64,000 nucleotides of DNA, taken from positions 1-64,000 of the forward strand of contig JARBJD010000046.1 in NCBI GenBank assembly GCA_033064195.1, written 5' to 3'. The DNA is from Blattamonas nauphoetae (Eukaryota; Preaxostyla; Oxymonadida). This document shows, piece after piece, positions 1-54,528 of the stretch (the first letter of the stretch is position 1; each line of letters opens with the position of its first letter). The notes beneath the pieces are model-generated. The model saw only the letters and a program-made list of their open reading frames with translations, was not told where the DNA came from and made no database searches. A program made the translations under genes and the position numbers.

Positions 1-2468
1 TGCGAACTTCGATCTTCCTGTGATCATGAATGCACTTCACTTCTAATGCAATGGAGCATCTATGAACACCACTTGTCTACCGAAGTGTCCGAAACAGCTC
101 GTGGTTCATCATAAGAAACTCCAGGTGTCATTGAGATTCCTTGATGCAATGAATTTTGTATCGCCACAGTCATTGAAATCATTTGTGCAGGATTTTGGTG
201 ATGGAACTGATTCAAAGGCATATTTCCGCTGAAGCAATCAATGTCACTAATGTTGAAGAAGAATTGAATAAATCAGAACCGTTTCCAGAAGAAGTGTTCT
301 ATTCACGTGTGAAAAATGAATCATTGTTGAAAGATCTACCGTATTCTGATTATGTTGAAGATGCCAAGAGATTCAGTACAAGAAGAGAATACCTGAAGAA
401 CTATAACATCAATGATACTCTCATTATGATTGATCCAATTCAGAGATTGATTCAATGGTTTGCAGCAGGGAGAGTCGATATGTTGCAGTTTGTCTCATGT
501 CCAGCAGCAGCAGTGAATTTGAGAAATATGTCAACATACTTTCCGACACTCTATTCTGATTCACCACCATATGCTGACTTCGATATCAATGCCACTTATG
601 TAGTCAAAACTTGTGAGAAAGCATATGATTTGACACCAGCGAAATGGAAATATATGGTGAAGAATTATGAATACCAAGATGAGAGAGCCGATCGTGATTC
701 TTCTAAAAATGTGAATGACAATGACTATGAATGGATGACTGAACTTATCAAGAAAGGATGTGCCATTTGTGGAGCTTCATTTACGTTTCAGAATCAACCA
801 ACACTTGATCGAATTGACTGCTCACTATCTCACACAAAAGAGAATTGTCAACCATGCTGCGTGTACTGTAATGTTGTTAAATCCAATCGAGATGAACACC
901 TGACGAAACTCAAGATTAAACTGCGCCAATTTGCTCAAATCCACAAGCTTCAGATGACATTGACTGATGAACGAGTGTATAAGCTATTGAGGAGTGGAAT
1001 CACTGGTGGTTTGTCTAATGTGATGCACAGATTGAATCGATCAGGAATTGACACCATTCATCGTTTTGAATTCGATAGCGAAAATAAAAAAGTGATTGAC
1101 ACAGATACAGGAAATGAAATGACTCACATCCTCTGTCTTGACAATAATTCACTCTATCCAAGTGTTTCAGCATCAGTGCCACACAAGGCTGTTAAATATA
1201 CAAACAACAGAATGTATATGCCAGGAAGCGTCAAATTCTACACAACAAAGAAGGAAGTAATGTTGAAGATCATTAAAGAAAGGAAAGATCTGTTCGCTGT
1301 CAAAGTGAAGGGACACATTCGAGAGGACAGAATCAATGATTTCATTAATATGCCTCCCATTGTTCAGACAATCAATATAAAACCATATCAGATGTGCTCA
1401 GAAGACACTCTTGAAGCAATGAGGAATTGTGGTGTTCCAGAAGGAAAATCAGAGAAGAAAGTCACGCAACTGTTGTCAACTTTTGGTGAGTGTAGAGTGT
1501 TCAATTCATACTACTTGTGGTTCCTTCTTGATGATTGTGCTTTTGAAATCGATGATGTGTCTGAGATGGCTGTTTTCGAGAAGAATACTGCATTCAATGG
1601 ATTCATAACATCAATGATTCAACGTCGAATCGCTGCAATCGAAGCTGGAAACACTGGGATGGAAAAGTTCTGTAAACTAATCCTCAATTCATGTTACGGT
1701 TACGATTCTCTCAATACTGAAAAGTACAAAAGATCATATTTGTTGAATCGAGAACAGACGTTTCTGAAGCACTTGTATCCTGATTTTCTGTCGACTGATC
1801 AGATTGGAAAAGATTTGTATTTAGTCGATGTAAAACCCAAGAAATTCAAATGCAAAACTGCTCTTCAATCAGCGTTCTTCACACTGGAGAATGCCAAGTA
1901 TTGGTACTTCAATTTCTACTACAATTTCATCACTAAGTGTTGTGACGAACAGAAGTTTCATTTCATCTATTGTGACACAGATTCGTTGTCTATCGCGATT
2001 GCAGGTGATCCAAATCAAGACTGTCATCAAGGTTTATCCGCTATTGTCTCAGATCAGCAGTTCTACGATAAGAATGTGTTTCAATGGTTGCCAAATCCAA
2101 AGTGTGGAATCAAATCAAGGAAGAAACTACTGGGATTGTCAGTGGAGAAAGAAGGTGATTTCATGATTGCTCTGTCACCAAAATGTTACTTCATCAGTGA
2201 GAAAAATACTCAAGTGCACAAAGCCATTAAAGGTATCTCACTAGCACGGAATTCACATCTGGATCAATCACAATTCATCAAAGCAAACGAGACTAAACAA
2301 CCGATTGAAGGAGAGAATGTTAGCTTTCAAATGAAGGAAGATTCAATGGTGACAGTACTGGTGAAAAAGAATGCATTGACATCAATTCACACAAAGATGA
2401 TGGTACTTCCGAACGGATCATGTGCTCCATTCATTAATGGATTAAACAGAGAGGACTATCTCTACTGA
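1..2468 (+). mobile_element. Polinton/Maverick-like fossil: type B DNA polymerase region
   Basis: This is the polymerase part of a Polinton-like element, treated here as a fossil. The B-family polymerase palm motifs are visible: a DxxSLYPS-type motif about 320 residues into the main open frame and a YCDTDS motif about 600 residues in. Between the N-terminal part and the palm lies a cysteine-rich insert (CxxC, LDRID, then CxxCC and YCN), which resembles an HNH/endonuclease VII type zinc motif. Coding-like sequence continues to the left edge, so the true start lies outside the window. In this family the enzyme is a protein-primed polymerase that copies the element itself. Most of the region is open, which suggests a fairly young insertion. 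Base composition is more AT-rich than the host genes further right. Confidence 0.85.
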
Positions 2469-2494
2469 GTATAAGTTATTTTTATGTCCATTAA

Positions 2495-3787
2495 ATGCCA
2501 ACTGTCGATTCAATATTCAAAAATGTTCCTTCATGGGAAGTAGCCAAGCAGAAGCGACATGCCACAAGGATTATTCAACAATGTTCAGAAGAGAATGGAC
2601 TCAAGACAAATCTGCAACTTTACTCTCGTATTCTTCATCAGTATCAGTTTACACAACAGCAATTGTCAGATATAGCAAAACAAGATCGGATTCTCAAGTT
2701 TGGAGGGAAGACATTATCTGAGTTGTACAATTCCTACTTTGATTTGTTTCGTGTCAATCATCCAGATCAAGTGTTTGAAGCAGATTTGCGAAGAATGAGA
2801 GTGTTCAATCCAGCACCAAGAATCAATGCGCCAGCTCCACGGATTCCAGAACAAATTGACTATCCATTCAAGTCAAAAACAAAAGTGTTTCATCAAGTGA
2901 ATCCAACAGTTCCAGTTCCAGATCAGAATACGTTTGTGACAGATCATAATCCAAAGAATCGATTGTTTCTTCAACGTCCGTCATTCTCTCCATATCGACA
3001 TTCGTGGGAAATTGACATCATGGTTCTCAAGACTAATCCACAATCAATTCCGCAGTACTATCTCGTGTGTGTGAACATTAATACCAAGTATCTTGTGATG
3101 ATCAAAATAGCGTCGAGGAATGATGTAGTAATCCAAAATGCTCTTCAGCAATTGATTCAAACCGTGGAAGTTGATCACATTCGTGGAGATGCAGAGTCGG
3201 GATGGAATAACAATCGCATTAGAGATTTCCTCGAAAGGAATGATATCCAGTACTTCTTTTCATCATCTCCATTCACAAATAAAAACAGAGTTGTTGATCG
3301 AATGATTCGGACAATCAGAGATGCTTTTCGTGGTAATGTAACTCAGATGTGTGACAATAATGCAATGCAGCAGTTTGTGGATTATTACAATCTGACTCCT
3401 CACAAGGCATTTAGAAATATAGTGACTCCAGTTGAGGTTGAAAGAGATGCTGAACTCGAATGGGCATATATCTAACGAAAGCAAGACAAGTTGAAGCAAG
3501 TCAAGAGAACTCAGACCAGAAAAGGACTATGGGATTATCAACCAGGCAATGTTCTTCAGATTCATTTGGATTTATCAAAGACTCAACACGCTTTCGAGAA
3601 ACGCAGACGACAGTTCAATAAATTGGCGACATTTCTGTCTTATGTCAATGGGAATGTTCGCTGTCAATTGCTTCAACCATATCAAGACATTCGTGTTGTT
3701 GACATTCCTATTCACTTCACAGAAAAGATAGCAGATTCTGTCAATACACTAACGCCTCAGGTCAGGAATAAGTTCAATCTCCGTTGA
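2495..3787 (+). mobile_element. Polinton-like fossil: retroviral-type (rve/DDE) integrase region
   Basis: This is the integrase module of the same fossil block, 26 bases after the polymerase and on the same strand. A helical N-terminal part precedes a proline-rich linker. The integrase core fold then starts at a W-E-I-D segment, followed by a GDAESGWN stretch, and a basic C-terminal region follows. Polymerase next to integrase is the usual Polinton arrangement. The region looks broken, with about one interruption. In living relatives the integrase inserts the element into host DNA. The family call is firm because of the core motifs and the position beside the polymerase. Confidence 0.75.
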
Positions 3788-5545: not shown

Positions 5546-5699
5546 CACTAATTCCTCGCACTAATGAGCTCTGTCAATTGTGTCGGATAATGACTCCATT
5601 TTGGACTACTGTCAATCGAGAACACAGATAATTATGGGTCTCAGAAAAAATAAACGCAGAACTTTTTTATAAATCGAATTTTTTATCTCCTTAGAAAGA

Positions 5700-8219
5700 A
5701 TGGCATTACAAATTTCAAGAATTGAATTCAAGAAAAATGATGACACTCTCAACGACGATTTCGATAATGATTTCGACGCAATGTTCAATAATCTTCCTGA
5801 CGAAATTCATTCATTGTCTGATCGTTTGAGACCACACAAAGTCCCATTGTTCGACTATAAGAAATACAACGATGGTATATCATCTGAGAGTGCTGGTCAT
5901 AAACGAACAGGAACAGCAATAAACATTGCACATGTGACCAACCTAGCAGTCGTGGATATTGACATCTTGGATAAGGATGCTGATGAAGAAACCAAGAACC
6001 AAATCCGAACATCTGTGTTAAATGTATTACCCAATGATGTCGGATTAGTAGTGACTGGATCAGGGGGTCTTCATATATACTGCGATATTCATGGCTACAA
6101 ACTGGAGAAAAACTCAATGGTGAAGGTGAAGAAAACTGACCAATACGATGTAGATTTATTCGCCTGTGTAGACTCATCTCTGCGCTGGATAGTGCAACCG
6201 AAATCCAAAGTCCAAAGGAAAGTGGAAGGCACTAATAAAATCCAATCATATAAGACCATTAATGACTTTGACGAACTCTTCATCCTATCATCATTGTCAG
6301 ATGTATTATCTAGTCTATGTATTTCATTAAAGCCCACTCCAACAGAGAAGAAGCCATCAGTGAAGTCATCAGTGAACCAGACCAAAATTGAAAGTCCAAT
6401 AGCTCCTTCTTTCGACGAGGATTCCATTCAACAGTACACTTTAGCCCAAGCTGATTTAATCAGAAATGGACTGAAAGGACTAGTGATTCACAACGATTCT
6501 GGATCGAGATCAATTGAAGAGGAAGTCTCCTTGTTGCCATTATTTGCAGGCATTAATTCCTTAAGACACATCAATGGATTTACAGACGAGATGCTCGAAC
6601 AAACATACAAAGACATCTATGACAATAACACATTGACTGAGAATGCAGAGAAGAATTGGGAAGCTCAGAGAATACGGTACGCTTCGAATGTTACCCATCC
6701 TGGAGTCCTCATTAAAATCATTAGAATCCATAATGAAAAGTACTACAATGATGAACTCCTTATTCCTCTCACTGACTACGATGTCTCTGATTTCTTTGAC
6801 AGTCTTGAAGTTGATTCTCATGATGAACCAGTCAATGATAATCTCTCCAATGAACCCACTAATGAACAATCAAGAACGAAGGATTCATTCGATGAAAAGA
6901 TCGATCTACTGTCTCCATTTGACTTCTCTACAATAAGGAAAAAGGCAACCAACAAAGAATACAAATCAGAGACAGAAGTGCTAAGAGATCTATTGAAAGT
7001 TCTTCGCCGTATTGAAGTCTCATTGTTATGCATTGTGAAAGAGTACAGTTCTCTTGATCTCTGCTATCGTGTCAATGTTCAGAAAGAAGGTAACGTCTTG
7101 AGATTATTGAAATCAATCAAAGTGACCATCCCAAGCGAAGATCCAAAGAAGTGTAGAACGATCACGTGCCAATCAACATTCGAGAATTATCGCAATCTAT
7201 TCATGGTCAATGGCATTCGATTCATGAGCGATAATCCACAGATGTTCTCGCTATTCCAAGGATACAAATATCCATTCGTTAGTGAACCAAACACTGATCT
7301 GATTCAACCATTCTTAGATTTCACCAAAGAGATAATTTCAGACAATAATGAAGAATTGTATAACTTCATTATCAACTGGATATCATTCGTGATTCAGAAT
7401 CCTGGTCAGAAAACAGCGTCAGTCATTATCTTGAAGGGAATGCAAGGAATTGGCAAAAATGTCTGGACTAATGTGCTCTGTGAAATAATGCGAGGATACT
7501 CTGCTCCAAATATCACTGACATTCAGGAACTCTGCGGTACATTCAACACAGTAATTGAAGGCAAAATGCTGATCGTCTGTAATGAATTGAAGAACGCTGG
7601 TGAAGAAAGAATGTCGAACTTTGATGCCCTCAAATCAATAATTTCCGACACTAGCTTCAGGAGCTAATGAAAGGGAATCGCTCGTCGTGACGCTGAGAAT
7701 GTTGCCAATCTGATCTTCTGCACAAACAACGCATATCCAGTCAAGATTGAAGTCGATGATAGACGCTATTGTGTCTGCAAAGTCTCCAATAAACGCAAGG
7801 ATGATGCCAGCTATTTCCTAAACCTCATCCGCTCCTTCACTCCTGATTTTTACTCGCACCTATTGACATACTTCAATCAGAGACCCATCACCGACTTCAA
7901 CCCAAGGCAATTACCAAACACTAATGCTAGATGTATTCTCCAAGAAGTGTCTCGATCAGTAATAGGAGACTTCTGTCTACAGCACATCGATGAATTAGAA
8001 CAAGGAATGCCATGTTCCTATGCCGCTGAACTAATGCCAGATCACTATAAGAAACTCAAGACATTCCAGATGGACCTCCATGAGCACTGCACTAGAAAAA
8101 AGGTCACCATAAATAAACAACGAATATGGTGCTATGTCATCGATCCCAAGTATGCCGATCTACTTAAGAAATCCTCCATCAATGACCAAGACACTAATGA
8201 CCAATACACCGATGACTAA
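5700..8219 (+). mobile_element. Polinton-like fossil: primase-helicase (AEP primase plus SF3 helicase) region
   Basis: The N-terminal half resembles archaeo-eukaryotic primases: a VVDIDI metal-binding motif about 85 residues in, a GSGGLHIY motif about 120 residues in, and a VDLFA segment near residue 150. The C-terminal half carries a superfamily 3 helicase core with a Walker A motif GMQGIGKN and a Walker B-like stretch KMLIVCNEL. This D5-type primase-helicase is common in Polinton-like viruses and virophages, and would open and prime the element's DNA. The region looks broken, with about one interruption. It shares strand and AT-rich composition with the polymerase and integrase to its left, but an inverted repeat separates them, so it may belong to a second, adjacent element. 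Confidence 0.75.
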
Positions 8220-12838: not shown

Positions 12839-12993
12839 TCCAACAAGCTTCGATGAGTGTACGATCCCGGATGATTAAGTACGAGAAGCCATTTAAGGGC
12901 GAGATCAAGGTTCCCACTCCACGAGAAACCATTTTTTTGGAAATTTGCAAAACCATGAAGAGGACAACGGTACATGGTGAAATGAAGGTTATA

Positions 12994-13595
12994 GTGCTGT
13001 CACCAAAGCGCCGAAATTCAATAAACCGCTTAAAATCGAGATTTTTTCTGAGAAATGTTGTTTTGGTGAGAAAATAATTCTGCAAAAAATTTGGAGCTAA
13101 AGACCCATTATTCGCCGAGAAAACCCAATATTCGTCATTTTGGCTATTTCAAAAAAGTGTATTTTTGCAATATCTCAACAACCAGTGGATCAATTGTCTT
13201 GATTTTTCTTCCAGATTCTTTTTTTGATGATTTGAACATTTTGAAAAAAAATCGAAAAAAAATTATGGGTATCTGGAAAGATTCAAAAAAACCCATCTTT
13301 TCTCGAGAAAAAATTCTTAGACAAAAAAATGGTTTCTTTTTTGAGCATCTTTTGTCGAGATCGATACGAACAATATGCAATTTGTTTGGTGAAAAACGGA
13401 TGGCTGGTTGTGGAGATATGACGTCGAAAAGTTGAAAAAAAAGGTGTGTATCCTACTGTATGAGGCTACAGAGCCCAATAATGGGTCTTTAGCTCCAATT
13501 TTTTTTCAGGATTATTTTCTCACCAAAACTACATTTCCCAGAAAAAATCTCGATTTTAGGCGGTTTATTGAAAACCGGCGGTTTGGTGACAGCAC
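12994..13595. mobile_element. Mariner-type MITE, complete copy 1
   Basis: The element begins GTGCTGTCACCAAAGCG and ends with the reverse complement type TTTGGTGACAGCAC. It is flanked by TA on both sides (12992-12993 and 13596-13597), and its inverted repeats are about 120 bp long. There is no transposase; the interior is A+T-rich with runs of T and A. The core includes the words GATCGATACGAACAATATGC and ATGGCTGGTTGTGG, which are shared with the other copies in this window. Its insertion point splits the left arm of an older inverted repeat, which gives the relative age. Confidence 0.85.
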
Positions 13596-13597
13596 TA

Positions 13598-15040: not shown

Positions 15041-15042
15041 TA

Positions 15043-15632
15043 GTGGCGTCACCAATTTGTTCCATGTCAACAATTCGTGTTTTTTCTGGAAAAAGCACTT
15101 TCTATTAAACTAAGAAAAGAACAAAATAGTTGAATTTTCCTCTCACGCCATCCCGAGAAAACCTCAAAATACGTTATCCAGTGAAACTACACACATTTTC
15201 CAAACTTTCGACGATCATTTTTCCATAACCAGAAATCCGTTTGAGACCGAAGAAAAAGCATTATTTTCGTAAACATATCGATAAAAGATGCTCAAAACAA
15301 TAATTGTTTTTTCCCATGAAATTTTTCTGGGCGAAAAACAGCCTTTTTTCATATCTTCCCAGATACCCATTTTTTTAAATCCAATTTTTTTGCAAAATAC
15401 TCATTTCAGCAAACAAACGTGTCTGTGGAAAGTGTCATCAAAATCGGTTCACAGGTTGTGAAGTTATGACGAGAACACATGAAAAAAGTGGTTGAAAAGA
15501 GCTATTGTGAGGATATTTTGGGATCCAGTGGAAGGAAAATTCTAAAATTTTAGTTTTTTCTTAGTTTGACCAAAAGTGATAATTCCAGAAAAAAGCACTA
15601 ATTGTTGACATGGAACTATTTGGTGACGCCAC
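15043..15632. mobile_element. Mariner-type MITE, complete copy 2
   Basis: The ends are GTGGCGTCACCAATTTG on the left and TATTTGGTGACGCCAC on the right, flanked by TA at 15041-15042 and 15633-15634. The length is 590 bp. The interior carries ATCAAAATCGGTTCACAGG and the CATTTTTCCATAACC core shared with the other copies. There is no coding capacity. It is nested in an older relative. Confidence 0.85.
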
Positions 15633-15634
15633 TA

Positions 15635-16016
15635 TTAACTGAAAGAAGGATGATGCAACACAACATGGGAATCCACAGAATGATGTAACTCAACATCGCG
15701 TCCTATACAGGGAAATTGCTCCTCATCAAAACTAATTCTTCGGCACCATTTCATCCAATTTCATTCCCACTCTTTCCCTCATTTCACATCTTTCTGACTT
15801 TACTATTTTCTTTTCCAACCAACTTCTAACTATTGCTGGCCCCATCATGTGAAAAATCACTGTGTCGAGATCTATACGATAACAATGCATTTTATTTGAT
15901 TCAAAACGGATGGCTGGTTGTGGAGAAATGAGGAAAAAAGTATCATGAAATGTGAAACTTGTCGTTGAATTAGATTCGATGCGAGGAATAATGCAAAAAT
16001 AACGTCACTTATGATA
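15635..16016. other. No gene; contains a short MITE core fragment near 15868-15935
   Basis: The only recognisable piece is GATCTATACGATAACAATGC followed by ATGGCTGGTTGTGG, a reversed core of the MITE family. The remainder shows no coding frame or terminal repeats. Confidence 0.5.
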
Positions 16017-16455
16017 GTGGTGACACCAAACCGTCCGGTGTCACCAATCCGGCCTTTTTTCTGTGAGGGACCATTTTGGTCAAACTTAGAAAACAATCAC
16101 ATTTTAGATGTATTCTCCCACGTGATCCCGAGAAATCCTCAACATACGTTTAACGTTACGAATGGATACGTTTTTTCGACATTTTTGACCTTATTTCTCC
16201 ACAACCAGCTCCCCGTTTTAAGTCCAATAAAATGCATTATAGTCGGAGAGATCTCGACAGAAGATGTTCAACAAATACATGGTTTTTTCTTAGAATTTTT
16301 GGTCTAGAAAAATATGTGTTTTTGTTGCTTTTTTCAGTTCCACAGAATTTTGTCTCCAATTTTTTGAAAAAAGTTCGTTTCACTAAAAAAAAATGTTTCA
16401 ATACAAAAATTTCATCGAAATCGGTTCATGGGTTGTGAAGCTATTGCCGAAACGC
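16017..16455. mobile_element. Mariner-type MITE, right-truncated copy
   Basis: The left end GTGGTGACACCAAACCGTCC sits beside a TA (16015-16016), and the first ~440 bp track the copy at 27467-28059 closely. Shared blocks include CACCAATCCGGCC and ATCGAAATCGGTTCATGG. The right ~150 bp and the right terminal repeat are missing. Confidence 0.75.
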
Positions 16456-17910
16456 AAGTAGTGGAATGGATGAGTGTGCTTCTCATAGTTTATTCACACT
16501 TCACCCGATCCTCTTTCCCCGGCACTTTTTCACAATGTCTGGTCGTCTTAACAGCCCCCCTGCTCAAGAGCAGGGGGGGCTGCGAAGACTATAAGAGAAT
16601 TATCAAAAGAAACATGGAAAAAAGGCTCTTTGTGAAGCGAAAATACAAAAGTGTCACTGTCATGATCAAATGGGCACTAAAGCTAACTCATACCCCATCT
16701 CGCCTGTTTTTCATCTCCTGAATCGTTTTTGAATGTGCATTCGGCAGATTGAGAAACGAGATCCTGACCCAAATTTTAACTCACAAACACTTTATTACCA
16801 AGTGAATTGAAAATAAATTTTTCTTTCTGGTTTGATCTTGATTGAATTCTTCAAAAGTTGGTAAATTGTTTGGCAATGGTGTTTGAAATGATGAAACAAT
16901 GGTGAAAGGAAATATTCAATGTGTTATTTTCATATATAGGTGTTTCTGAATGATCTCTTGCTCCGCTTTGTCACACACAAGATCGATGTTCTCCTCCGCC
17001 ACTGCTCCGCCACGTCAATTTGCACGATGTTCCCAGCGATGAATAGGTCAATGGAACGAACTAGAGTGACGATGTTGTCAATTCTCCCGTAGCGATGGTG
17101 AAGATTATCTTATTTCCGTTTGAAGTCCATGCTCGTCTTCATCTGAGTTGGTACAGTGGGTGAGCAGCGACGATGCCAGCGCTGACCGCGACACGTCCGA
17201 ACTGCTGTTCTGTTCATCGAAGCTCGTGAGTCGAAGCGAAAGTGTCCTGAGGCAGGAGAGAGAAGAATAGTGTGGAAGATAAGATGAAGGGACAGAGAAG
17301 AGGGAAGTGAACGAGATGGAATGAGAGAAGAATAGTGGAGAGGGAGTATGCACAGACTTTGAAGACTCCGGATCGGCAATCCCAGCAGCTGAATCCGCCA
17401 AGTGCTACTGCCATCCCTGTTGGCGTAATTTTCTTCGAAAGTGACGCAAGGAAAGGGAAGAGAGAAACGAGCTGACAGTCTGAGGAAGAAGACAAAATAG
17501 AGAGATGAGAGCATAGAGATCACAGGACATGGAATGACAGAAACAGATAGAGGGCGTGAAGAAAGAGGAGGAACGAGAGAAGAAACAAACGGCGACATTC
17601 ACGGCTTCGCTTTGAGTGAACTCCATCTCCACGACACGAGCACGATGTGTAGGTGACAGACTTCGATTCTGTCCCTATCTCCACTTTCTGGTCGTTTCCA
17701 ACTGACAACGTCAGAACGCAAGCTGTCTCTGGTTTCGATGATGATGATGTCAAGTCGACGAGAGAAGAGTGCGATGTATCAACGATGGAAAGAGATCCGC
17801 TTTTTCGAATGTCAACAACTCCATCTCCAGCTGCCTTCCATCCACTGCGGCAAATGATCCAATAGCTATGTGAAATCTTTGTTTCGACGCGGAAGGATGA
17901 TTGTTCGAAA
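16456..17910. other. Long stretch without a recognisable gene
   Basis: I see no gene. A strong hairpin (CAGCCCCCCTGCTC, loop AA, then its complement with one bulged G) lies at 16552-16582. Between 17260 and 17620 the top strand is rich in A and G, which produces long serine-rich shadow frames on the other strand. These have no motif, and codon choice there only mirrors the base skew. Confidence 0.5.
16552..16582. repeat. GC-rich hairpin
   Basis: The arms CAGCCCCCCTGCTC and GAGCAGGGGGGGCTG pair over 14 bases with a single extra G and a two-base loop. There is no T-run directly after it. It may be a hairpin tip of a lost foldback element, or a replication-prone artefact. The function is unknown. 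Confidence 0.6.
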
Positions 17911-17912
17911 TA

Positions 17913-18688
17913 CAGTCTGAATAGTTCAAAGTCGAACAGAAATAATTCAAAGTCGAAGTAAATAATTCAAAGTCGAAGGACCTAATTTTTGGACCAATTT
18001 ATTCAAGTGAACCTCTTAATCCACTCTTTCGTGATCACAAAAACAGAATCAATGATCATGGTACTGGCTAGTCAAATATCGTCCGACACCATTCATCACT
18101 TTCTCGGCTATAGTTCACATTTTTGAGCTCATTTCACAGTAATTCTTCGTCCAAGCCCAGAAAAACCAACAAATCAGATCCTCCAGAAGTAGAACAAGGC
18201 CAAAAGTTTCCCTAACTAGTCACACCGATGACTCCTTCCGGCCTCTCAAACGTCAGTTCAATCCTTTCAACCTTTTGTGTGTCACAAGCTGTTTTTTCTC
18301 AGACCAATGTAGTGACTTTTTTCATCTAAAAAGCTAAAAATCCCTTCATATGGCATGAGTGCATTGTTTTCAATCCTGACATACATGTTCACCCGATAAA
18401 GCACATTGGTACAAAAAGTTCACAGCAGATGTAGTGTATAATGTGCTGATTTCGGAAGCTAAAGACAAAAAATCTGAATTGCGACTTTGAATTATTTCAC
18501 TTCGACTTTGAATTATTTCATTTCGACTTTGAATTATTTTCTTCGACTTTGAATTATTTCATTTCGACTTTGAATTATTTTCTTCGACTTTGAATTATTT
18601 CATTTCGACTTTGAATTATTTTCTTCGACTTTGAATTATTTTCTTCGACTTTGAATTTTTTATGTTCGACTTTGAACTATTCAGACTG
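17913..18688. mobile_element. Tc1-type foldback element, copy 1, with 20-bp tandem end repeats
   Basis: The ends are CAGTCTGAATAGTTCAAAGT and its exact reverse complement, flanked by TA (17911-17912 and 18689-18690). Starting with CAGT at a TA is typical of Tc1-like elements. Inside the right end lies an array of about ten units of TTCGACTTTGAATTATTTC (18482-18680); the left end has about three reversed units. There is no transposase. The unique interior is shared, inverted, with copy 2. Confidence 0.8.
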
Positions 18689-18782
18689 TACGTCCATCAG
18701 AGGAAAATATGCCAGATCACTTTCATTGGTCACACTTTCGAGGGTATTGTTGTTTTAAAGGAGGTAGAGGGAATGGACAATA

Positions 18783-19416
18783 CAGACAGAATAATTCAAA
18801 GTCGAAATGAAATAATTCAAAGTCGAAGTGAAATAATTCAAAGTCGAAAAACAGATTTTTTTCCTGTAGCTTCCATATGCACCACACAATTCACTCTATT
18901 CTCCTGTAACCTTTTTGTACCAATGTGCTTTATCTGGTGAATAAGTTTTTCAGGATTGACAGGAATGCATTCATGCTTTCTGAAGTGATTTTGAGCTTTT
19001 TAGATGAAAAAAGTCACTACATTGGTCTGAGAAAAAACAGCTTGTGACACACAAAAGGTTGAAAGGATTGAACTGACGTTTGAGAGGCCGGAAGGAGTCA
19101 TCGGTGTGACTAGTTAGGGAAACTTTTGGCCTTGTTCTACTTCTGGAGGATCTGATTTGTTGGTTTTTCTGGGCTTGGACGAAGAATTACTGTGAAATGA
19201 GCTCAAAAATGTGAACTATAGCCGAGAAAGTGATGAATGGTGTCTGATAATACTTGACTAGCCAGTATCATGATAATTGAGTCAGGTTTTGTGAGCATGA
19301 AAGAGTGGTGTGTGAGGTTCACGAGAACAAATTGTTCGAAAAAATTGGTCCTTCGACTTTGAATTATTTCACTTCGACTTTGAATTATTTAATTCGACTT
19401 TGAACTATTCAGACTG
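18783..19416. mobile_element. Tc1-type foldback element, copy 2, inverted relative to copy 1
   Basis: The left end is CAGACAGAATAATTCAAAGT and the right end is the reverse complement of CAGTCTGAATAGTTCAAAGT, each beside TA (18781-18782 and 19417-19418). The interior from about 18905 to 19345 is the reverse complement of 17977-18420, with small differences such as a short deletion. Both copies carry the same 20-bp tandem units at their ends. Together the two copies form a palindrome of about 1.5 kb. Confidence 0.8.
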
Positions 19417-27464: not shown

Positions 27465-27466
27465 TA

Positions 27467-28059
27467 GTGGTGTCACCAAACCGTCCGGCGTCACCAATCC
27501 GGCCTTTTTTCTGTGAGGGACTATTTTGGTCAAACTAAGAACAAAATAAAATTTTAGCATTATACTCCCACCCGATCCCGAGAAAACCTCAAAATACGTT
27601 TTACGTTACGAATGCACACATTTTTTTCAACTTTTTGCGGTCATTTCTCCACAACCAGCCATCCGTTTTAAATCAAATAAAAGGCATAATAGTCGGATAG
27701 ATCTCGACAAAAGATGAACAAAAAATAAAAGGATTTTTTCCTAAGAATATTTTGTCGAGAAAAATATGGGTTTTTTCCGATCTTCCCAAATACGCAGAAT
27801 TTTTTCTCCAAATTTTTGCAAAAATGTTCGTTTCACCAAAAAAACGTTTGTGTGAAAAATTTCATCGAAATCGATTCACTGGTTGTTGAGATATTGTCAA
27901 AACGATGTTTTTCATCGGGCAAAAGGGGGTATTTTGAGGATTTCTCGGGATCGCGTGGGAGTATAATTCTTAAATTTCAGATTTTTCTTAGTTTGACCGA
28001 TATTGATTTTTCCAGAAAAAAGGCCGGATTGGTGACATGGGACATATTGGTGACACAAC
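27467..28059. mobile_element. Mariner-type MITE, complete copy 3
   Basis: The ends are GTGGTGTCACCAAACCGTCC and TATTGGTGACACAAC, flanked by TA (27465-27466 and 28060-28061). The inverted repeats also include CACCAATCCGGCC and TTTGGTCAAACTAAG, so they span roughly 100 bp. The core has ATCGAAATCGATTCACTGG. The element is 593 bp with no coding capacity. It lies 218 bp from the large element that shares its terminal 15 bases. Confidence 0.85.
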
Positions 28060-28277
28060 TATAAGATCATTCAGAATGGCACCTAGAAGGTGAGACTATG
28101 GAAAATAATGACTGGAAAAGAGTGAGAAATCGAAAAAAATAGCCAAGTGATGATGGGAAAGGGAGGAGTGCATCACTTCACATCATATGAATGTAGCAAT
28201 TTGGTAATTTTCATGTTCATAGCATCCAATTTAAGATTCTACTGAGATCAGACCCTTTGAAGAAATCGTGACTGATA

Positions 28278-28520
28278 GTGGTGTCACCAATCGGTGTCTT
28301 GTCACCAATTGGTGCTTTTCTCATATTTCATAGAAGAGATAATGACTATGAACTGTGTGAAGTGATAGAGTTACAGAAAGCCTCCATCCTGAGAAAAACA
28401 TGAAATACTGTTTGAGTGTGCAATTCATGGGTTAGATCATATCTCGTTCTGGAAAAGAGGATAAATTAGAGATAATTCACATCACATTTTGTTTCCTTCA
28501 ACTTCTTTAACAATCATAAG
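28278..28520 (+). repeat. Left 243-bp terminal inverted repeat
   Basis: This arm is identical to the reverse complement of 32187-32429. It begins GTGGTGTCACCAATCGG and contains a second CACCAATTGGTG palindrome 15-30 bases inside, which could be a subterminal transposase site. Confidence 0.85.
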
Positions 28521-28767
28521 AGGACTATGAATCCTATTCTCATCGATTCTTTGTCTTATCTCATTTTTTGTCAGATAAAGGGAAGACTTATTCACCAGTT
28601 TCTATATGGTGAAATTTAAGCACGCCTCTCTCTGTACTTTTACGTCGAACATTTTTCATTAATCCTTCAACGACCTGATCAAACATCGTTCTCGTATTCA
28701 ACGTTCTGTTCACCTGGATAACTCAGAATCTATACCAAGCTCAAAAAAACATTCAATATTATGATCC

Positions 28768-31700
28768 GTGACACAAAACCGCATCGCTGCAAGCTCTCCG
28801 ACACTCACACCTATTCGACACAGCTCTCTCGAAAACAGGAAACGGGACGAATCTGATCAACGTGGGCGATGGCTCTTTCGAAGTTCCAGTGACGTCGATC
28901 TCGTCGAACGTGGAAGTTTTTGGTGTTGGCTTCCTCACAAACTCATCGACCTTCACAGCAATAGTCTCTTCTGGTCTGACAGAAGCGACCAGCCAGCTCG
29001 TCACAACGGAATCGTCGAAGGAAACTCGTCTTTCGACAGTTCGGATCGAATGCATCAAATCGCACGAAGTCTCCCTCCTCTCATTTTCATCGAGATCATC
29101 CCTTTCCTGTTGAACAATTGCAGATCAGTCTTGTTCGACGTCTCCGTCCGCAACCCCCTCACTCTCGTCGGATGCTCTCTCGACGACTTTCGAGGTGGTT
29201 CATTCACTCTTCGATATTGCGCTTATTCCAACATTCATTCAGACGTGAATGGCAGTGTTCTTCATGCGATCAACACCACTGTCTCCTTCACTCACGTGTC
29301 ATTCACGAACTGTTCGTCAAAGAACTGCTCAGCAACAGAAACAGATTATGATGGGAACCTGATTGGGAAGGGGGAGCAAGGCGGCTGAAGTGAACGACAT
29401 CTTCATCGAGTTGTGATCGAAGGACGGAACGATCCGACAGAATTGGAGCTCATCCACTTCTTCCTCCCCTCACCAACGATCTCAGTGAACGGGAGTCGAC
29501 AGCTGCCTCTCGGAGGATACTGTGGAACAGACAACGACAATTGTAAATGGACAGGAACAAGCTACGCGACATTACAATATGGAGTGAGTCATCTAAAGCA
29601 GAAGTGCAAGAATGACAGACACTTCCCGCAGACGATCATGATTGTGTGGAACATGACATACATTGAGGAGGACATTGATATTGCAGATCAAGACGTCACT
29701 GTGAAGGGAACGACAGCGGCGAAGAAAGATGCTCGCCTGGCTGTTGTCAATTTGGACATTCGACCGATTGCGAAGGCCGGTTTATTTTCTTTGGAGGACG
29801 ATGGAGACAGTTTGGAGTTGAACGACGTTGCTATGATCTGCTCACTCTCCAAATCATTCCGTCATATTCTCCTCCAATCGACTTGTCAGCCAATCAGCAT
29901 CGTGGATTGCACGTTTAACCGGACAAAAGACTCAACTGGACGCGCAACACTCTCCGCTCCTCTCATTTAGTTCTCGTTGGACACATCGTCTCTCTTCATT
30001 TCTTCCGCAACTTTCTGTTCATTCTCTGTGCCAAATGACGCGCTGGTGGAGATCAGGAGCGAGCACCCAACTTCCATTCTCTCCACCTCGTTCTCAGATT
30101 GTGTCCGAACTGACCCAGATCAACCCAAGCTGATTCCTGTGATATCCTCATCTCTCTCCCGACCAGCCACTCCTCGACTTTGCTGGGCGAGACAGTTCGC
30201 TAATGTCGAATGAGAAATGGTACGAAACATCACTAATGTACCATCTCATCTCCCCAACAGTGAAGATTGTGGCAGATAAAAAAGGAAAGAACGAACAAAG
30301 TGAACACCCGAAATGTGGATCTGATCGACTTCGATGTTCGTTACTGGAATCTGCAGTGGCTTCCTCTCTCTCACACGCTCCTGAATTCAATTGAGGTCGC
30401 AGGAACAACGACACTTTCCTCCTCTCATGTTGTCTCCTCATCCGCCTCAATCTCGTCTCCCTCAACGAAGCAGATCATCGTCCAGTCTGGAGTTGGATCC
30501 ATCACGATGAATGGAGCCAGCCAGACACTCTCATTCGACTCGCTTCTCTTCCACCTTTCTCCAAGCAGTGCAGTTCCTTCATTCTTCATCGTCTCCGCAG
30601 GAGCCCTATCCCTGACATCGTGTGATGTCGGCACAGACACTCGGATTAAGCTAAATGACCACACCATCTCATCGGTGCAAGTTTCAAATGATCCCTCTCT
30701 TGGCATTGTCATCCATCTCTCGCTCGGCACGACATTCTAATCCACAACAGACACTCTCTTCGACGAGATCGCGTCAAATGGAACAGGCTCGCTCATCTTT
30801 GTTGCAGCATCTGATCTCGATTCAACGGCCCTCCAAGCACCATTCTCTCTTCTCAAGAACAAGTCGGAACTGACTCTCCCGAAAGCATGCTCTTCTTCTG
30901 GTTTCCTCACACGAATCAAGAGACCACGCAGTCTGTCGATGGAGAGGGAGAGGATCACGCCAACTGTGGGCTCACTCAACTTCCTTACGAGACACTGGAC
31001 AAAGGATTCTCATCTCTCAAGCGAACGGAGTCAACACTTCTCATCGGAAGTTCAACCAGCCTCAAAACATCACATTCGACTTCGTTTATCAAGCAGATCA
31101 TCAAGTCGAAGAGTGAGGGGGCAACACTCACTGCAGACTCGTCTGCCTCTTTCTCTGTTTTGGTCGAATACACACTCCATCTGAACAGTCTCGCTTTCGT
31201 CTTCGGAGCCGACCAAAGATCAACCTCCTTCCATTCAGTCTCTTCTTGTTCACTGTCGATCGAGTCGTGTTCATTTGGATCAGCTGCAACTGCTTCAACT
31301 CTGAACGAAGCTCTGTTCAACATCGTCGGAAGCCCGACCTTCAAATCCTCCATTTTGACGAGAATCAGCACTTCGTCATCGACTGGACTCCTCTCTCTCG
31401 ATCTGTCTGGATCTCACACCCTCTCCATTGTCTCAACTTCCCTCGTCTCGTGCACAGCATCGTCCGCTCCTCTTGTCTCCCTCACTCTCTCTTCCACCAC
31501 TGAACAGACAGATTGGGATTTCGACCTGAGTGGTCTCTCGTTTTCTCTCGCTCCGTCGAATCCTGTTCCGAGTGGAGCTCTGATCTTCGTGTCTAGACCA
31601 TCCTTCGCGACACAAATCGTTCACTCTCATTTCACGTCTGTTGACTCGTCGACCGATCCAGAAGCGTTTCGGGGAATGACACTTCAACTGAAGTGTCATC

Positions 31701-31950
31701 ATCGCTGCTTGAGTATCCGATCCGATTGCAACAGGACGAGAGATTGATGTGTATGGGGAGAATGGGAAAGACATTGCTCACTGTGGTCCCAATGGGGTGA
31801 GTGACTCGACGATTGAGAAACGAATCTCGCGAGCGAATTGAGAAGATAGATCGAAAGTGATTCAAATTGTGGATTCGACAGATCTGGATGCATTAATCTC
31901 ACCAAACGAACACGCTCTCTCTCTCATTGGACACTCGACAACTCAGTCGG
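28768..31950 (+). pseudogene. Right-handed beta-helix repeat protein gene inside the mariner-type element
   Basis: Plus-strand frames across this span encode a serine- and threonine-rich protein with short repeating beta-strand rungs (for example SSTSLKTSHSTSFIKQIIKS and SGSHTLSIVSTSLVSC). A header module recurs three times: GGYCGTDNDNCKWTG with ATLQYGVSHLK near 29515, DHANCGLTQLPYETLDKGFS near 30950, and YGENGKDIAHCGPNG near 31755. This Cys-Gly header followed by polar beta rungs resembles the large beta-helix surface or secreted protein families of Preaxostyla. Frames change or stop near 29388, 29970, 30740 and 31747, and GT-AG introns do not obviously restore them, so the copy looks decayed. 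I see no clear signal peptide or membrane anchor. Confidence 0.6.
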
Positions 31951-32186
31951 TGAGGATTCTTGATGATGGTTGATGTCGAAGAATGAGAAAGAAACGATGT
32001 CGATCGCCACAGCCGAAGATGTCTCCACTCCGGGGTCACTTGCGGGTGTGATGGCATTGGTTGAGTTGGGTCGATCTGAATAGAAGGCGTTCCTGACCTC
32101 ATTCTAAGAGCTTCAACATATTATGATCGATCTGCCCATTTTCTCATTTCATTATTTCAACCAAAACGAAACATGTCAATTGAAGT

Positions 32187-32429
32187 CTTATGATTGTTAA
32201 AGAAGTTGAAGGAAACAAAATGTGATGTGAATTATCTCTAATTTATCCTCTTTTCCAGAACGAGATATGATCTAACCCATGAATTGCACACTCAAACAGT
32301 ATTTCATGTTTTTCTCAGGATGGAGGCTTTCTGTAACTCTATCACTTCACACAGTTCATAGTCATTATCTCTTCTATGAAATATGAGAAAAGCACCAATT
32401 GGTGACAAGACACCGATTGGTGACACCAC
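32187..32429 (-). repeat. Right 243-bp terminal inverted repeat
   Basis: This is the partner of the left arm, identical in reverse complement and ending GATTGGTGACACCAC beside TA. Confidence 0.85.
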
Positions 32430-32594
32430 TATGACACTGATCAGCACTTTTGGCCGGTCAGACAAGCCTACATTTAGATCATTCTCTCGTTTTTATTTAA
32501 CAATAAATTACGATGCCATTCGTCTCATTTGTTTCACCTGTTTCGATCCGAAGATCAAAATCCAACAAATGATGGGTCAGTGTTCTCCGTCCCA

Positions 32595-51145: not shown

Positions 51146-51345
51146 GCATTAATACTTTCATGTTCATCCATTTTGGATCAGAACCAGTCTGTCAGGAAAA
51201 GGAGCCGTCCAAAATTGTGGACACCTTTGATCTCTTTTCCAGAAAAGTGGACACTTGTCGAAAAAACGCAGAAATGGACACCTGTAATTTAAAAAAATCC
51301 CAGGATTTGGACACCCCCAGATTCTGGACACCTTTCTGCCAAAAT

Positions 51346-53432
51346 AGGAGGTTAGGTGTCCAAAACTCTGGATTTAAGGAAAGCGTGAAAAACAATCAGA
51401 AAAGAGTTCATGAGATACAAAACCCAAAAAAGGAGGAGAAACGAACTACAAAAACCGTCCTAGACAATAAAGCGACAGATCATGACGAAAGATAAAAAGA
51501 GAGAATAGAAGAAGAAAAGAGCAAGATGGTGGAAGAAAGAAAGTAGAAATAGGGAGTGGAAGGGCCAAGGCGTTGATGGAACAGGACAGCACGTAGGTAG
51601 AGGTGAAAAGAGAGGGTAGTCAATAAAAGGTAATGGACGGCATGATTAGAGGGTACATAAGGGAAGGTAAGAACAAAAGTGGAAGAGCAAACTCATGATA
51701 AAGTGAGAACGCGAACAATCTGTGACTTTTGTCATATTGCCGGCTCTCATGTCACAGTGTGACTAACAGCCACAGTCCTACAAACACAACAATCCGCGAT
51801 CGCAAACAGAACAAAGAAAAATGAGGAAAGATGTGAACAAAGAGGAGAATGCACACGTCACATCATTCTTTCGTGCAAGACGAGAAATCACACTTTCATA
51901 CGCATTCCCGATTTCAACACGAATTTAATCCCCCAGCGATGAACTATTCCGTATGAACAGCATCCCTCCATCCGCCAGGAACACGTGCAGTGAGCTCGTC
52001 CGCACAGATCGTTGGTTGTTGACCAAATGTCTCGGACAAGATCGACAGCACTGAATCACGACATCGAGCAGGTGAAATCACATGGCAGCATGAGAAGGGA
52101 AAGAAAAGAGAAACTCCTTGCATGAGTCTTCTCAACTGGGTGTGTGAGGGAGAACGAACTGATGATCGTCGAAAGGACGAGAATTATTTGATACCACAGG
52201 CATGCGTCAAACTGCACCCAAACACATAAACAAGATCAAAGACAAGAGAACAGGTGATAGATGAGAGAGGAGCACACATCCGTTTGAAGAAGCGCAGAAT
52301 GGATTGAGCGTGTCTGACAACTCAATTACTTCAGAAGGAGATTGTATTTGTCCCCAGCAACCAAAGTATCCGCACGGAACGATCAGGCAGGGAGCTCGCG
52401 AGGAGTCGATGAGGCAGGTGGGCTTCGCTTGAGGGGAGCGTTGCTGGTGAAAAGTTGAATGGGCCAGAAAGCAAACACGAAGGAGAGAAGGGCTGTCTCT
52501 GCATTCTCCGAGAAGGGGGCAACAACGGTGAGGGTGCGGATCAGTTCCTGTAGGTGGACGAGATCATTGAAGAAAGATGAAAAATAAAGTATGGCTAATC
52601 AATTCACACAAATTTTGTGTGTCAAGGCTTCGGACAATATTCGCAACAAACAGTACGATCAATGTTTCCATCAACTCACAGATTGATTCAAAATTCTGAA
52701 ATTAACATGGAATCAAGACAGAATCACAAACTGATTCTTCTACCGACACTGGGTACGGTGCCAATTGGGATGAGCATCTAGTTTTAATGATTACGTTGAC
52801 GATAACCAGCTGCCACATAGGATGTTCTCCAACTGTTGACTGTCTCTGAACTTCGATAGAACTTGTGAAATGGTGAGGATCATCCCCTTGGTGACTAGCG
52901 TATCAACAACACAATGAAATTCACAACTTGATCGCGCATTGGATGTAACTCTAGTTTGCTCTTCTTCTTTTATTGTTTCTCTCTCTTAAATTTCGATAGA
53001 ACTTGTGAAATCGTGCGGATCTCCTGCTCTGGCACTTGTGCTCCAGCATTATGGTCAAAGTCGCAGATTTGTGGCGCATTGTGTGTAACTCTGGTTTACT
53101 CTTTCGCATTCCATCTCGCGTTCTCTTATGTACCCTCTAATCATGCCGTCCATTACCTTTTATTGACTACCCTCTCTTTTCACCTCTACCTACGTGCTGT
53201 CCTGTTCCATCAACGCCTTGGCCCTTCCACTCCCTATTTCTACTTTCTTTCTTCCACCATCTTGCTCTTTTCTTCTTCTATTCTCTCTTTTTATCTTTCG
53301 TCATGATCTGTCGCTTCCTTTGTCTAGGACGGTTTTTGTAGTTCGTTTCTCCTCCTTTTTTGGGTTTTGTATCTCATGAACTCTTTTCTGATTGTTTTTC
53401 ACGCTTTCCTTAAATCCAGAGTTTTGGACACC
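51346..53432. repeat. Inner palindrome A of the Mutator-like element, ~320-bp arms
   Basis: The left arm 51346-51665 and right arm 53112-53432 are nearly identical reverse complements; shared words include TGATTAGAGGGTACATAAG and GGAAAGCGTGAAAAACAATC. One visible change is GACAATAAAGCG against GACAAAGGAAGCG. The arms enclose a 1.4-kb loop. Confidence 0.8.
52850..53110. repeat. Tandem ~139-bp duplication in the loop of the Mutator-like element
   Basis: CGATAGAACTTGTGAAAT occurs near 52854 and again near 52992, and GCGCATTGxxTGTAACTCT occurs near 52935 and 53074. The spacing is constant at about 139 bp. Identity between the units is perhaps 70 percent. Confidence 0.6.
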
Positions 53433-53442
53433 TAACCTCCAA

Positions 53443-54339
53443 GGCAGATCCAACCACTGTCCTGACCATATTTCGTGTTTTTTCGATCGATTCTCCAAGA
53501 TCTAATCTTCATCTTGTTCTTTCTAACCAAGCTCCTAAATCGTTCACAGAGATCATAAACGGCCTCTCATTGACTTACAAGGTGTGATGATCTCCATTCA
53601 TTCCACCTTTCGTTTTCACTTTTTTACCTGATTTCAATCTCCGTTTGTTCGCTTCATTCACCTTTGCCATTATGATTTTCTTCAATCACTGTCCATTTTT
53701 CCCTCAATTTTCAATTTTCATTCTTAAATTCTCATTTTTCATTAATTGCCAACAAGTCATCTTTGATGCGGTTCTCTCTCCTCAATATGACTTCCCTTGC
53801 CATCCTCACGCTTTCCCTGATTACCAACATAACATCCCGTTCTATCAAACTCTTCTTTCCGTCTATATCCTCAGATACATTTCAGCAATCTGGACCACAT
53901 CTCGACCGATCACATCCATTTGTCATAGTCTCCTTAAAAACTCTTGAGTGCTTTCTAACCATTTTGTGAGGACGCTTGGCGATCTTTAGATGTAATTTCT
54001 GTTTTTTAATCGAAGAAGAGCACTCATTGACAAACTTACTCTAAAAGAGAGAATTCAAGAATGAAAATTGAAAAGTGACGAAGAAATGGACAGTGATTGA
54101 AGAAAATCATAATGGCAAAGGTGAATGAAGCGAACAAACGGAGATTGAAATCAGGTAAAAAAGTGAAAACGAAAGGTGGAATGAATGGAGATCATCACAC
54201 CTTGTAAGTCAATGAGAGGCCGTTTATGATCTCTGTGAACGATTTAGGAGCTTGGTTAGAAAGAACAAGATGAAGATTAGATCTTGGAGAATCGATCGAA
54301 AAAACACGAAATATGGTCAGGACAGTGGTTGGATCTGCC
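53443..54339. repeat. Inner palindrome B of the Mutator-like element, ~285-bp arms
   Basis: The left arm 53443-53735 and right arm 54057-54339 are nearly identical reverse complements, sharing GGCAGATCCAACCACTGTCC at the outside and TGAAGAAAATCATAATGGC-type sequence inside. The loop is about 320 bp. A plus-strand frame across the left arm and loop (53645-53947) is not called because it is pyrimidine-driven. Confidence 0.8.
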
Positions 54340-54528
54340 CTGCTAACCTCCTATTTTGGCAGAAAGGTGTCCAGAATCTGGGGGTGTCCAAATCCTGGGA
54401 TTTTTTACGAAAATTGATTCAAAATTTTGGACGGCTCCAGGAAAAGTGAGAAATGACATCTGGAAATGAGATGTTTGACTACTCATATCTCAGAAAAATG
54501 CAAAATGAAGACATTGTGACGTGAACGA

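Follow-up and report, generated by a model that had tools for sequence, protein, structure and literature searches.

Pack-TYPE elements have been described as found in plants, where CACTA, hAT, Harbinger-PIF and Mariner elements were surveyed besides Mutator-like elements (PMC8903248). The first fungal case of transduplication involves histone H3-like genes in a hAT element of Pyrenophora tritici-repentis (PMC3538342), and for the Mutator-like elements of Trichomonas host gene fragments are mentioned only in the background part of the report (PMC2725143). The main text of the Preaxostyla genome paper (PMC10703272) contains no word starting with "transpos", and no report of Pack-TYPE elements or gene capture in oxymonads was found among the matches listed in the literature searched. 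Here we describe an element of the oxymonad Blattamonas nauphoetae, located in the first 64,000 nucleotides of contig JARBJD010000046.1 (assembly GCA_033064195.1; this whole stretch is called the window hereafter). It is very probably a Pack-TYPE (transduplicating) copy, that is, a non-autonomous DNA transposon with long inverted ends and a patchwork of host gene fragments inside, and is thus a known kind of element in a new lineage. It resembles the plant elements (PMC8903248) in being non-autonomous, in having terminal inverted repeats with host gene fragments inside, and in the multiplication of these fragments by transposition; like the Pyrenophora element (PMC3538342), it is a non-plant DNA transposon by which host-like gene sequence is carried and multiplied.

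A family of elements with long inverted ends

The raw inverted match in the window covers 247 bp at 100% complementarity (28275-28521 and 32186-32432), and subtraction of the target site duplication leaves arms of 246 bp (Table 1). The element has the termini TAGTGGTGTCACC...GGTGACACCACTA (TAGTGG...CCACTA), and TGA stands outside both. The first-pass annotation of this DNA was right in reporting identical inverted arms, but it gave them 243 bp and TA flanks, which places the ends 2 bp too far in; the TA represents the element's own last bases. Its description of a 3.7-kb host-type interior without a transposase holds, as 3.66 kb of mostly host-derived sequence lie between the arms and no transposase was seen among the listed frames of at least 80 amino acids, with Pfam applied to selected frames; a Pfam scan of four pieces, two from the window and two from group B (see below), gave no match. 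The match of the outer bases to a family of miniature inverted-repeat transposable elements (MITEs) in the window, reported in the same annotation, was also recovered, with three complete relatives having similar outer bases (Table 1) and one partial relative at window 16015-16454.

Table 1. Features of the window element and its neighbourhood (window positions), and groups of gene-carrying copies in the genome
Feature	Position or copies	Strand	Content or basis
Whole non-autonomous element, group A copy, 4156 bp	28276..32431	+	Arm and end comparison; near-identical C516 and C273 copies (99.76-99.86%)
Left terminal inverted repeat	28276..28521	+	Begins TAGTGGTGTCACC; two GTCACCAAT motifs spaced 18 bp
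Right terminal inverted repeat	32186..32431	-	Same sequence as left arm
Target site duplication, left copy	28273..28275	.	TGA
Target site duplication, right copy	32432..32434	.	TGA
Captured fragment of beta-helix-type host gene	29135..31979	+	By block 81-87% identical to C198; compared with the C198 gene, sequence lost five times at block junctions (61-85 bp each)
Piece of second host gene (WD40-type, C423), 105 bp	32010..32114	+	80% identity; cargo chimeric
MITE, 214 bp left of element	27465..28061	+	Same outer bases; TAA duplication
MITE	12992..13597	+	Same end type; TTA duplication
MITE	15041..15634	+	Same end type; flanks CTA/TTA (one base apart)
Group A, 3 copies (2 sites)	C401 (window), C516, C273		Beta-helix-type cargo
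Group B, 9 copies	C779, C212, C830, C575, C457, C323, C168, C97, C70		Beta-helix-type cargo
Group C, 11 copies	C66, C268, C124, C100, C701, C423, C642, C464, C31, C163, C179 (split in two)		Part of WD40-type gene
Group D, 3 copies	C46, C523, C778		P-type Ca-ATPase cargo
Group E, 1 copy	C153		P-type Ca-ATPase cargo
Group F, 2 copies	C284, C413		Another beta-helix-type piece

A 33-base end pattern was found with at most 2 mismatches at 206 places in the genome, the reversed control pattern at 0 and a stricter end pattern at 54. At least 29 gene-carrying copies with these ends were recognized and fall into six groups (Table 1; the copies at C523, C778, C413, C163 and C179 were counted by search coordinates). 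Among 47 neighbouring plus/minus end pairs, 18 are spaced at 0.35-1.2 kb, 26 at 3.0-4.65 kb (one of these, at C11, combines two different end types) and three at larger distances, and all 21 pairs of the stricter class less than 5 kb apart fall in groups A-E. The arms are about 180-248 bp long in the A-E copies examined and about 81-90% identical across groups A, B and C. Within groups, the window and C516 copies show 99.76% identity, the C779 copy of group B shows 98.9-99.4% identity with six others by long block and 97.3-99.4% with C212, and listed pairs of group C show 98.9-99.9% identity. Because the copies within groups are near-identical, the movement was recent, as the first-pass annotation had proposed for the window element; it had also named, as support, further loci in a genome search with the arm, and several were found with the same arms and with interiors both shared and different. 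C516 and C273 have common flanks, as do C642 and C464, and these pairs are probably duplicated loci. No insertion site is common to any of the 18 sites compared by flanks; repeats in the flanks are shared by four sites. Groups A (2 sites), B, C (two copies sharing flanks) and D thus show multiplication as a unit, which would have followed each capture. Two further loci related to group C were noted: at C179:88060-124310 a copy lies in two matching halves with about 36 kb of other sequence between them, possibly a large nested mobile element or a misjoin, and at C294:41864-47086 a same-type end lies within 5 kb of a lower-identity C-like cargo, possibly an older capture.

It is also evident that the insertions duplicate three bases. 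The same TNA (TGA, TCA, TTA or TAA) is present on both sides in 24 of 26 end pairs, and the remaining two pairs are one base off. The 26 pairs comprise 22 gene-carrying copies and four MITEs, with the C516/C273 site, present twice in the assembly, counted twice; C70 (L019, right end truncated), C464 (L027, ends truncated), the nested MITEs of L057 and the MITEs of L045, L048 and L049 were excluded. In a search for empty sites using joined flanks (75+75 bp with one TNA) of 17 sites as queries, from which L016 was left out because a MITE forms its right flank, scores were obtained for 40 of 2645 candidates. Uninterrupted matches of 97-100% identity were found for 6 of the 17 sites, namely C212 (9 places), C830 (3), C457 (1), C97 (8), C100 (14) and C31 (5). 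One empty site was examined for each of these loci, and all six contain one TNA and match at 77 of 77 bases.

Host gene fragments in the cargo and their capture

Positions 860-3704 of the group A element are beta-helix-type coding sequence akin to open host genes. The interiors of A and B match the genes at C198 and C87 with 79-87% identity by block; the C198 gene is open across the entire 4.8 kb examined (1600 codons) and the C87 gene has one stop. The comparison with host paralogs proposed in the first-pass annotation thus led to donor-like genes, and no inverted arms were found in the stretches of these two genes examined. A search with the C198 protein returned 29 relatives, all annotated for B. 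nauphoetae, with BLNAU_16665 as the best. The group C interior matches the C423 gene in seven blocks of 86-94% identity and one block of 66%; this gene is open over 1800 codons, has a WD40-type domain (Pfam) at its end, and no such arms were found around it in the stretch examined. For the D and E interiors, the matching host gene is that of a P-type cation ATPase at C767/C103 (96% identity over 852 bp in D, 89-94% in other blocks); the gene at C767 is open over 933 codons, and the D fragment matches calcium ATPases in the PDB at 3.3e-12. Pieces resembling the C87/C198 genes at 79-82% are present in group F. The donor genes are three clearly different ones. The C423-like piece near the right arm of A adjoins the point in the C423 gene where the C interior starts, and, judging from these sequences, A/B and C probably have one old capture in common. 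An alternative code (TAA/TAG as glutamine), to which a stop in group B at a position of CAG in A had pointed, was rejected because, read with the standard code, the host genes have open frames of 933-1800 codons.

The fold name "beta-helix" is weakly supported. Of four related proteins scanned, two have Chlam_PMP repeats above the Pfam cut-off and a third has them below it, the Beta_helix match of group F is below threshold, and no Pfam match was found for the 1600-residue C198 frame. A structure model of a cargo piece (mean predicted local distance difference test score 49.5) neither supports nor excludes a beta-helix, and none of its 43 PDB matches at E up to 10 reaches E ≤0.001. The earlier claim that a beta-helix surface-protein gene had been moved therefore stands in part: beta-helix-type sequence is present in A, B and F, but as a broken, chimeric fragment, and other groups carry unrelated genes.

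Relative to the C198 gene, the cargo of both A and B is broken. In A, the stretch 860-3704 contains 4 in-frame stops and 14 insertions or deletions (indels), of which 10 are not a multiple of three; the corresponding numbers are 2 stops and 10 indels for B, with 8 not a multiple of three, and 1 stop and no indel for the host paralog C87. What the elements spread are fragments, and the cargo most likely contains no working gene. The ratio of nonsynonymous to synonymous divergence (dN/dS) over this stretch is 0.26 between the host genes C198 and C87, 0.34 between host and A, 0.30 between host and B, and 0.45 between A and B, and the synonymous difference between A and B (0.195) is about twice the roughly 10% difference of their arms. 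Because the A-B ratio is well below 1 and the synonymous difference exceeds that of the arms, much of the A-B divergence does not come from neutral drift inside the elements. At A 2801-3000, moreover, the distance of B from host C198 is 0.060, compared with 0.155 from A.

Regarding the mode of capture, group F consists of one 0.6-kb MITE (positions 1-95 of the C1 copy, then 2.48 kb of captured DNA, then positions 102-602). At 21 junctions the cargo is without 60-282 bp present in the donor-like gene, and 8 of the 21 have exact microhomology of at least 4 bp versus 2.9% of random same-distance pairs, a figure that is rough because the donors are inexact and some breakpoints are poorly placed. 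The split MITE in F and the chimeric cargo fit template-switching repair of a break or gap within the element. Cargo would have been taken up in the repair of an excision gap, or of a break inside a MITE-like element, by copying from host genes, the template being switched at short matches, and the same repair would have produced both the captures and the losses; we give this joint account slightly better than even chances, and gap-repair template switching is in our view the likeliest capture mechanism. A different mechanism is described for Pack-CACTA elements, in which neighbouring elements are excised jointly together with the chromosomal DNA they enclose, and a further mechanism is said there to be possible (PMC13317346, section 7). 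MITEs of the same type do lie side by side in this genome, since one lies close to the window element (Table 1) and another adjoins the C323 copy; however, A combines pieces of two genes that lie on different contigs, and F is one MITE split at positions 95/102, not two neighbouring MITEs. Joint excision of neighbours might apply to some groups, and we regard joint mobilisation as a whole as a possible but doubtful substitute for gap repair.

Points against the reading and the nature of the transposase

Several observations weigh against the reading of these elements as Pack-TYPE copies that took up cargo by gap repair and are moved by a Harbinger-type transposase. No empty site for the window's own insertion was found among the 40 of 2645 candidates scored, and the matching empty sites named as support in the first-pass annotation were found for six other copies; with that number of candidates scored, the missing match for 11 sites, the window included, means little. 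The closest donor-like genes of A and B are only 79-87% alike, and another paralog may be the true donor. Microhomology is shorter than 4 bp at 13 of the 21 junctions, and at six of the 21 the breakpoint is poorly placed (match at 34-39 of 50). The A-B substitution pattern counts against a simple course of one capture followed by decay for these two groups; much of their difference appears to have arisen under constraint, and possible explanations are separate uptake, exchange with host paralogs, or selection. In a transposase co-location search (198 distinct ends among those listed, 62 PF13359 matches, and 150 scored DDE_3 matches of 432 candidates), the numbers of PF13359 (Harbinger) genes inside the ends within 1.5, 3 and 5 kb are 0, 0 and 0 (expected 0.21, 0.42 and 0.70). 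The corresponding numbers of DDE_3 (mariner-type) genes are 1, 2 and 5 (expected 0.50, 1.01 and 1.68), with 5 outside the ends within 5 kb; this is about chance level, and neither class is shown.

The 3-bp TNA duplication follows the PIF/Harbinger (PHIS) pattern TWA/TNA and does not match the 2-bp TA of Tc1/mariner. Such a duplication is termed classic for Harbinger (PMC12477816) and is reported for the NuwaII group of the PHIS superfamily (PMC4482050), and PF13359 transposases exist in the genome. Unlike in PIF/Harbinger elements, no PF13359 gene was found within 5 kb inside the listed ends, and no C-TNA-G preference is apparent in the tabulated flanks. The long inverted ends would be moved by a transposase made elsewhere; judged by the duplication, a PIF/Harbinger-type carrier is probable, if by no means firmly so.

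The first-pass annotation had called the ends mariner-type. In a Tc1/mariner-type element a DDE_3 transposase would cut the ends, with TA as the target, and the cargo would be carried along. DDE_3 transposases are common in the genome, and at C24:160515 (L068) a same-type end with 260 bp that are 84% like the window's MITE lies about 0.6 kb from the 3' end of a DDE_3 gene, which is the one lead in this direction. However, the left flank at C24, the only end examined there, is ATA and not TNA, DDE_3 genes lie inside the listed ends at about chance level, and the three-base TNA at 24 of 26 pairs and at all six empty sites is not a TA duplication. We therefore consider mariner-type ends unlikely, and this part of the annotation is not upheld. 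Two other superfamilies were rejected: Mutator-like elements (Pack-MULE) have a target duplication of 8-11 bp, against 3 bp here, and CACTA termini read 5'-CACTA...TAGTG-3', against TAGTGG...CCACTA here.

Candidate loci for the autonomous partner were tried and rejected. The C65 end pair (7.2 kb, L045) looks like two MITEs with remains of an IS1595-type transposase between them; at C402/C669 a PF13359 gene has a MITE end next to it, but this end points away from the gene; and at C61 a distance of 5 kb separates the end from the PF13359 gene, and the 2 kb examined around that gene contain no GTCACC motif. The broken IS1595-type pieces at C65 occupy L045 3294-4051 and 695-1102. As a separate observation, parts of the D cargo (L054 2524-2981 and 1033-1133) match repeats in many contigs, and such repeats at C445, C360, C182 and C177 are accompanied, at a distance of 2.7-2.9 kb, by an oppositely oriented PF13359 transposase, of which they are perhaps the second gene.

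The elements could also serve as a shuttle between members of the surface-protein family, with gap repair copying paralog stretches in and the beta-helix-type cassettes forming a dispersed store for gene conversion back into host genes. This idea draws on the A-B dN/dS with its excess synonymous difference and on the mosaic closeness of B to host C198; mosaicism is seen in host paralogs too, so neither of these proves it, and we think it rather improbable. Far less likely still is that the arms frame an active surface-protein cassette, kept and moved by the host for variation: A/B and F do carry beta-helix-type pieces and the A-B dN/dS is below 1, but the frame-shifting indels and stops in both A and B, and the unrelated genes in C, D and E, speak against it. 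RNA-mediated capture, in which spliced host transcripts would be copied into the element, is largely refuted, for although the gaps in the cargo resemble removed introns at first sight, only 3 of the 21 missing pieces can be read as GT-AG and 18 cannot, even with a script that favoured GT-AG, and the host genes are open through them (one piece lost from the ATPase cargo codes GDGVND, which we take to be a conserved motif of the catalytic region of ATPases), so that the losses are deletions and not removed introns.

Other features of the window and comparison with known systems

The window also contains features apart from this family. At 177-2465 and 5568-7667 there are frames of DNA polymerase B type (PF03175, 9e-7) and of DUF5906/VapE-like type (8e-10), beside which inverted arms lie near 3954-4166/5323-5535; these are perhaps remains of a Polinton or of a virus-like element. 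Nested inverted repeats of 64, 121, 223 and 300 bp with 95-100% identity occupy 51292-54406, and a large inverted repeat with 470-bp arms of 92% identity and tandem TTCGACTTTGAATTATT-like units occupies 17902-19369.

Compared with the plant Pack-TYPE elements (PMC8903248), the Blattamonas elements occur in an oxymonad and have very long, near-identical arms, and an autonomous partner was not found in the transposase co-location search. The long form of the fungal hAT element encodes its own transposase and its carried gene is reported to be expressed (PMC3538342), whereas no transposase was seen in the Blattamonas elements and the A/B cargo is broken. As Pack-TYPE capture is described mainly for plants, with one fungal case, an oxymonad family would show that the process is tied to neither. 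With open donor-like genes, a split MITE, several separate captures and precise empty sites, the family would also allow the capture mechanism to be traced from junctions within a compact genome. In addition, some of the genes predicted for the host in this genome may in fact be transposon cargo.

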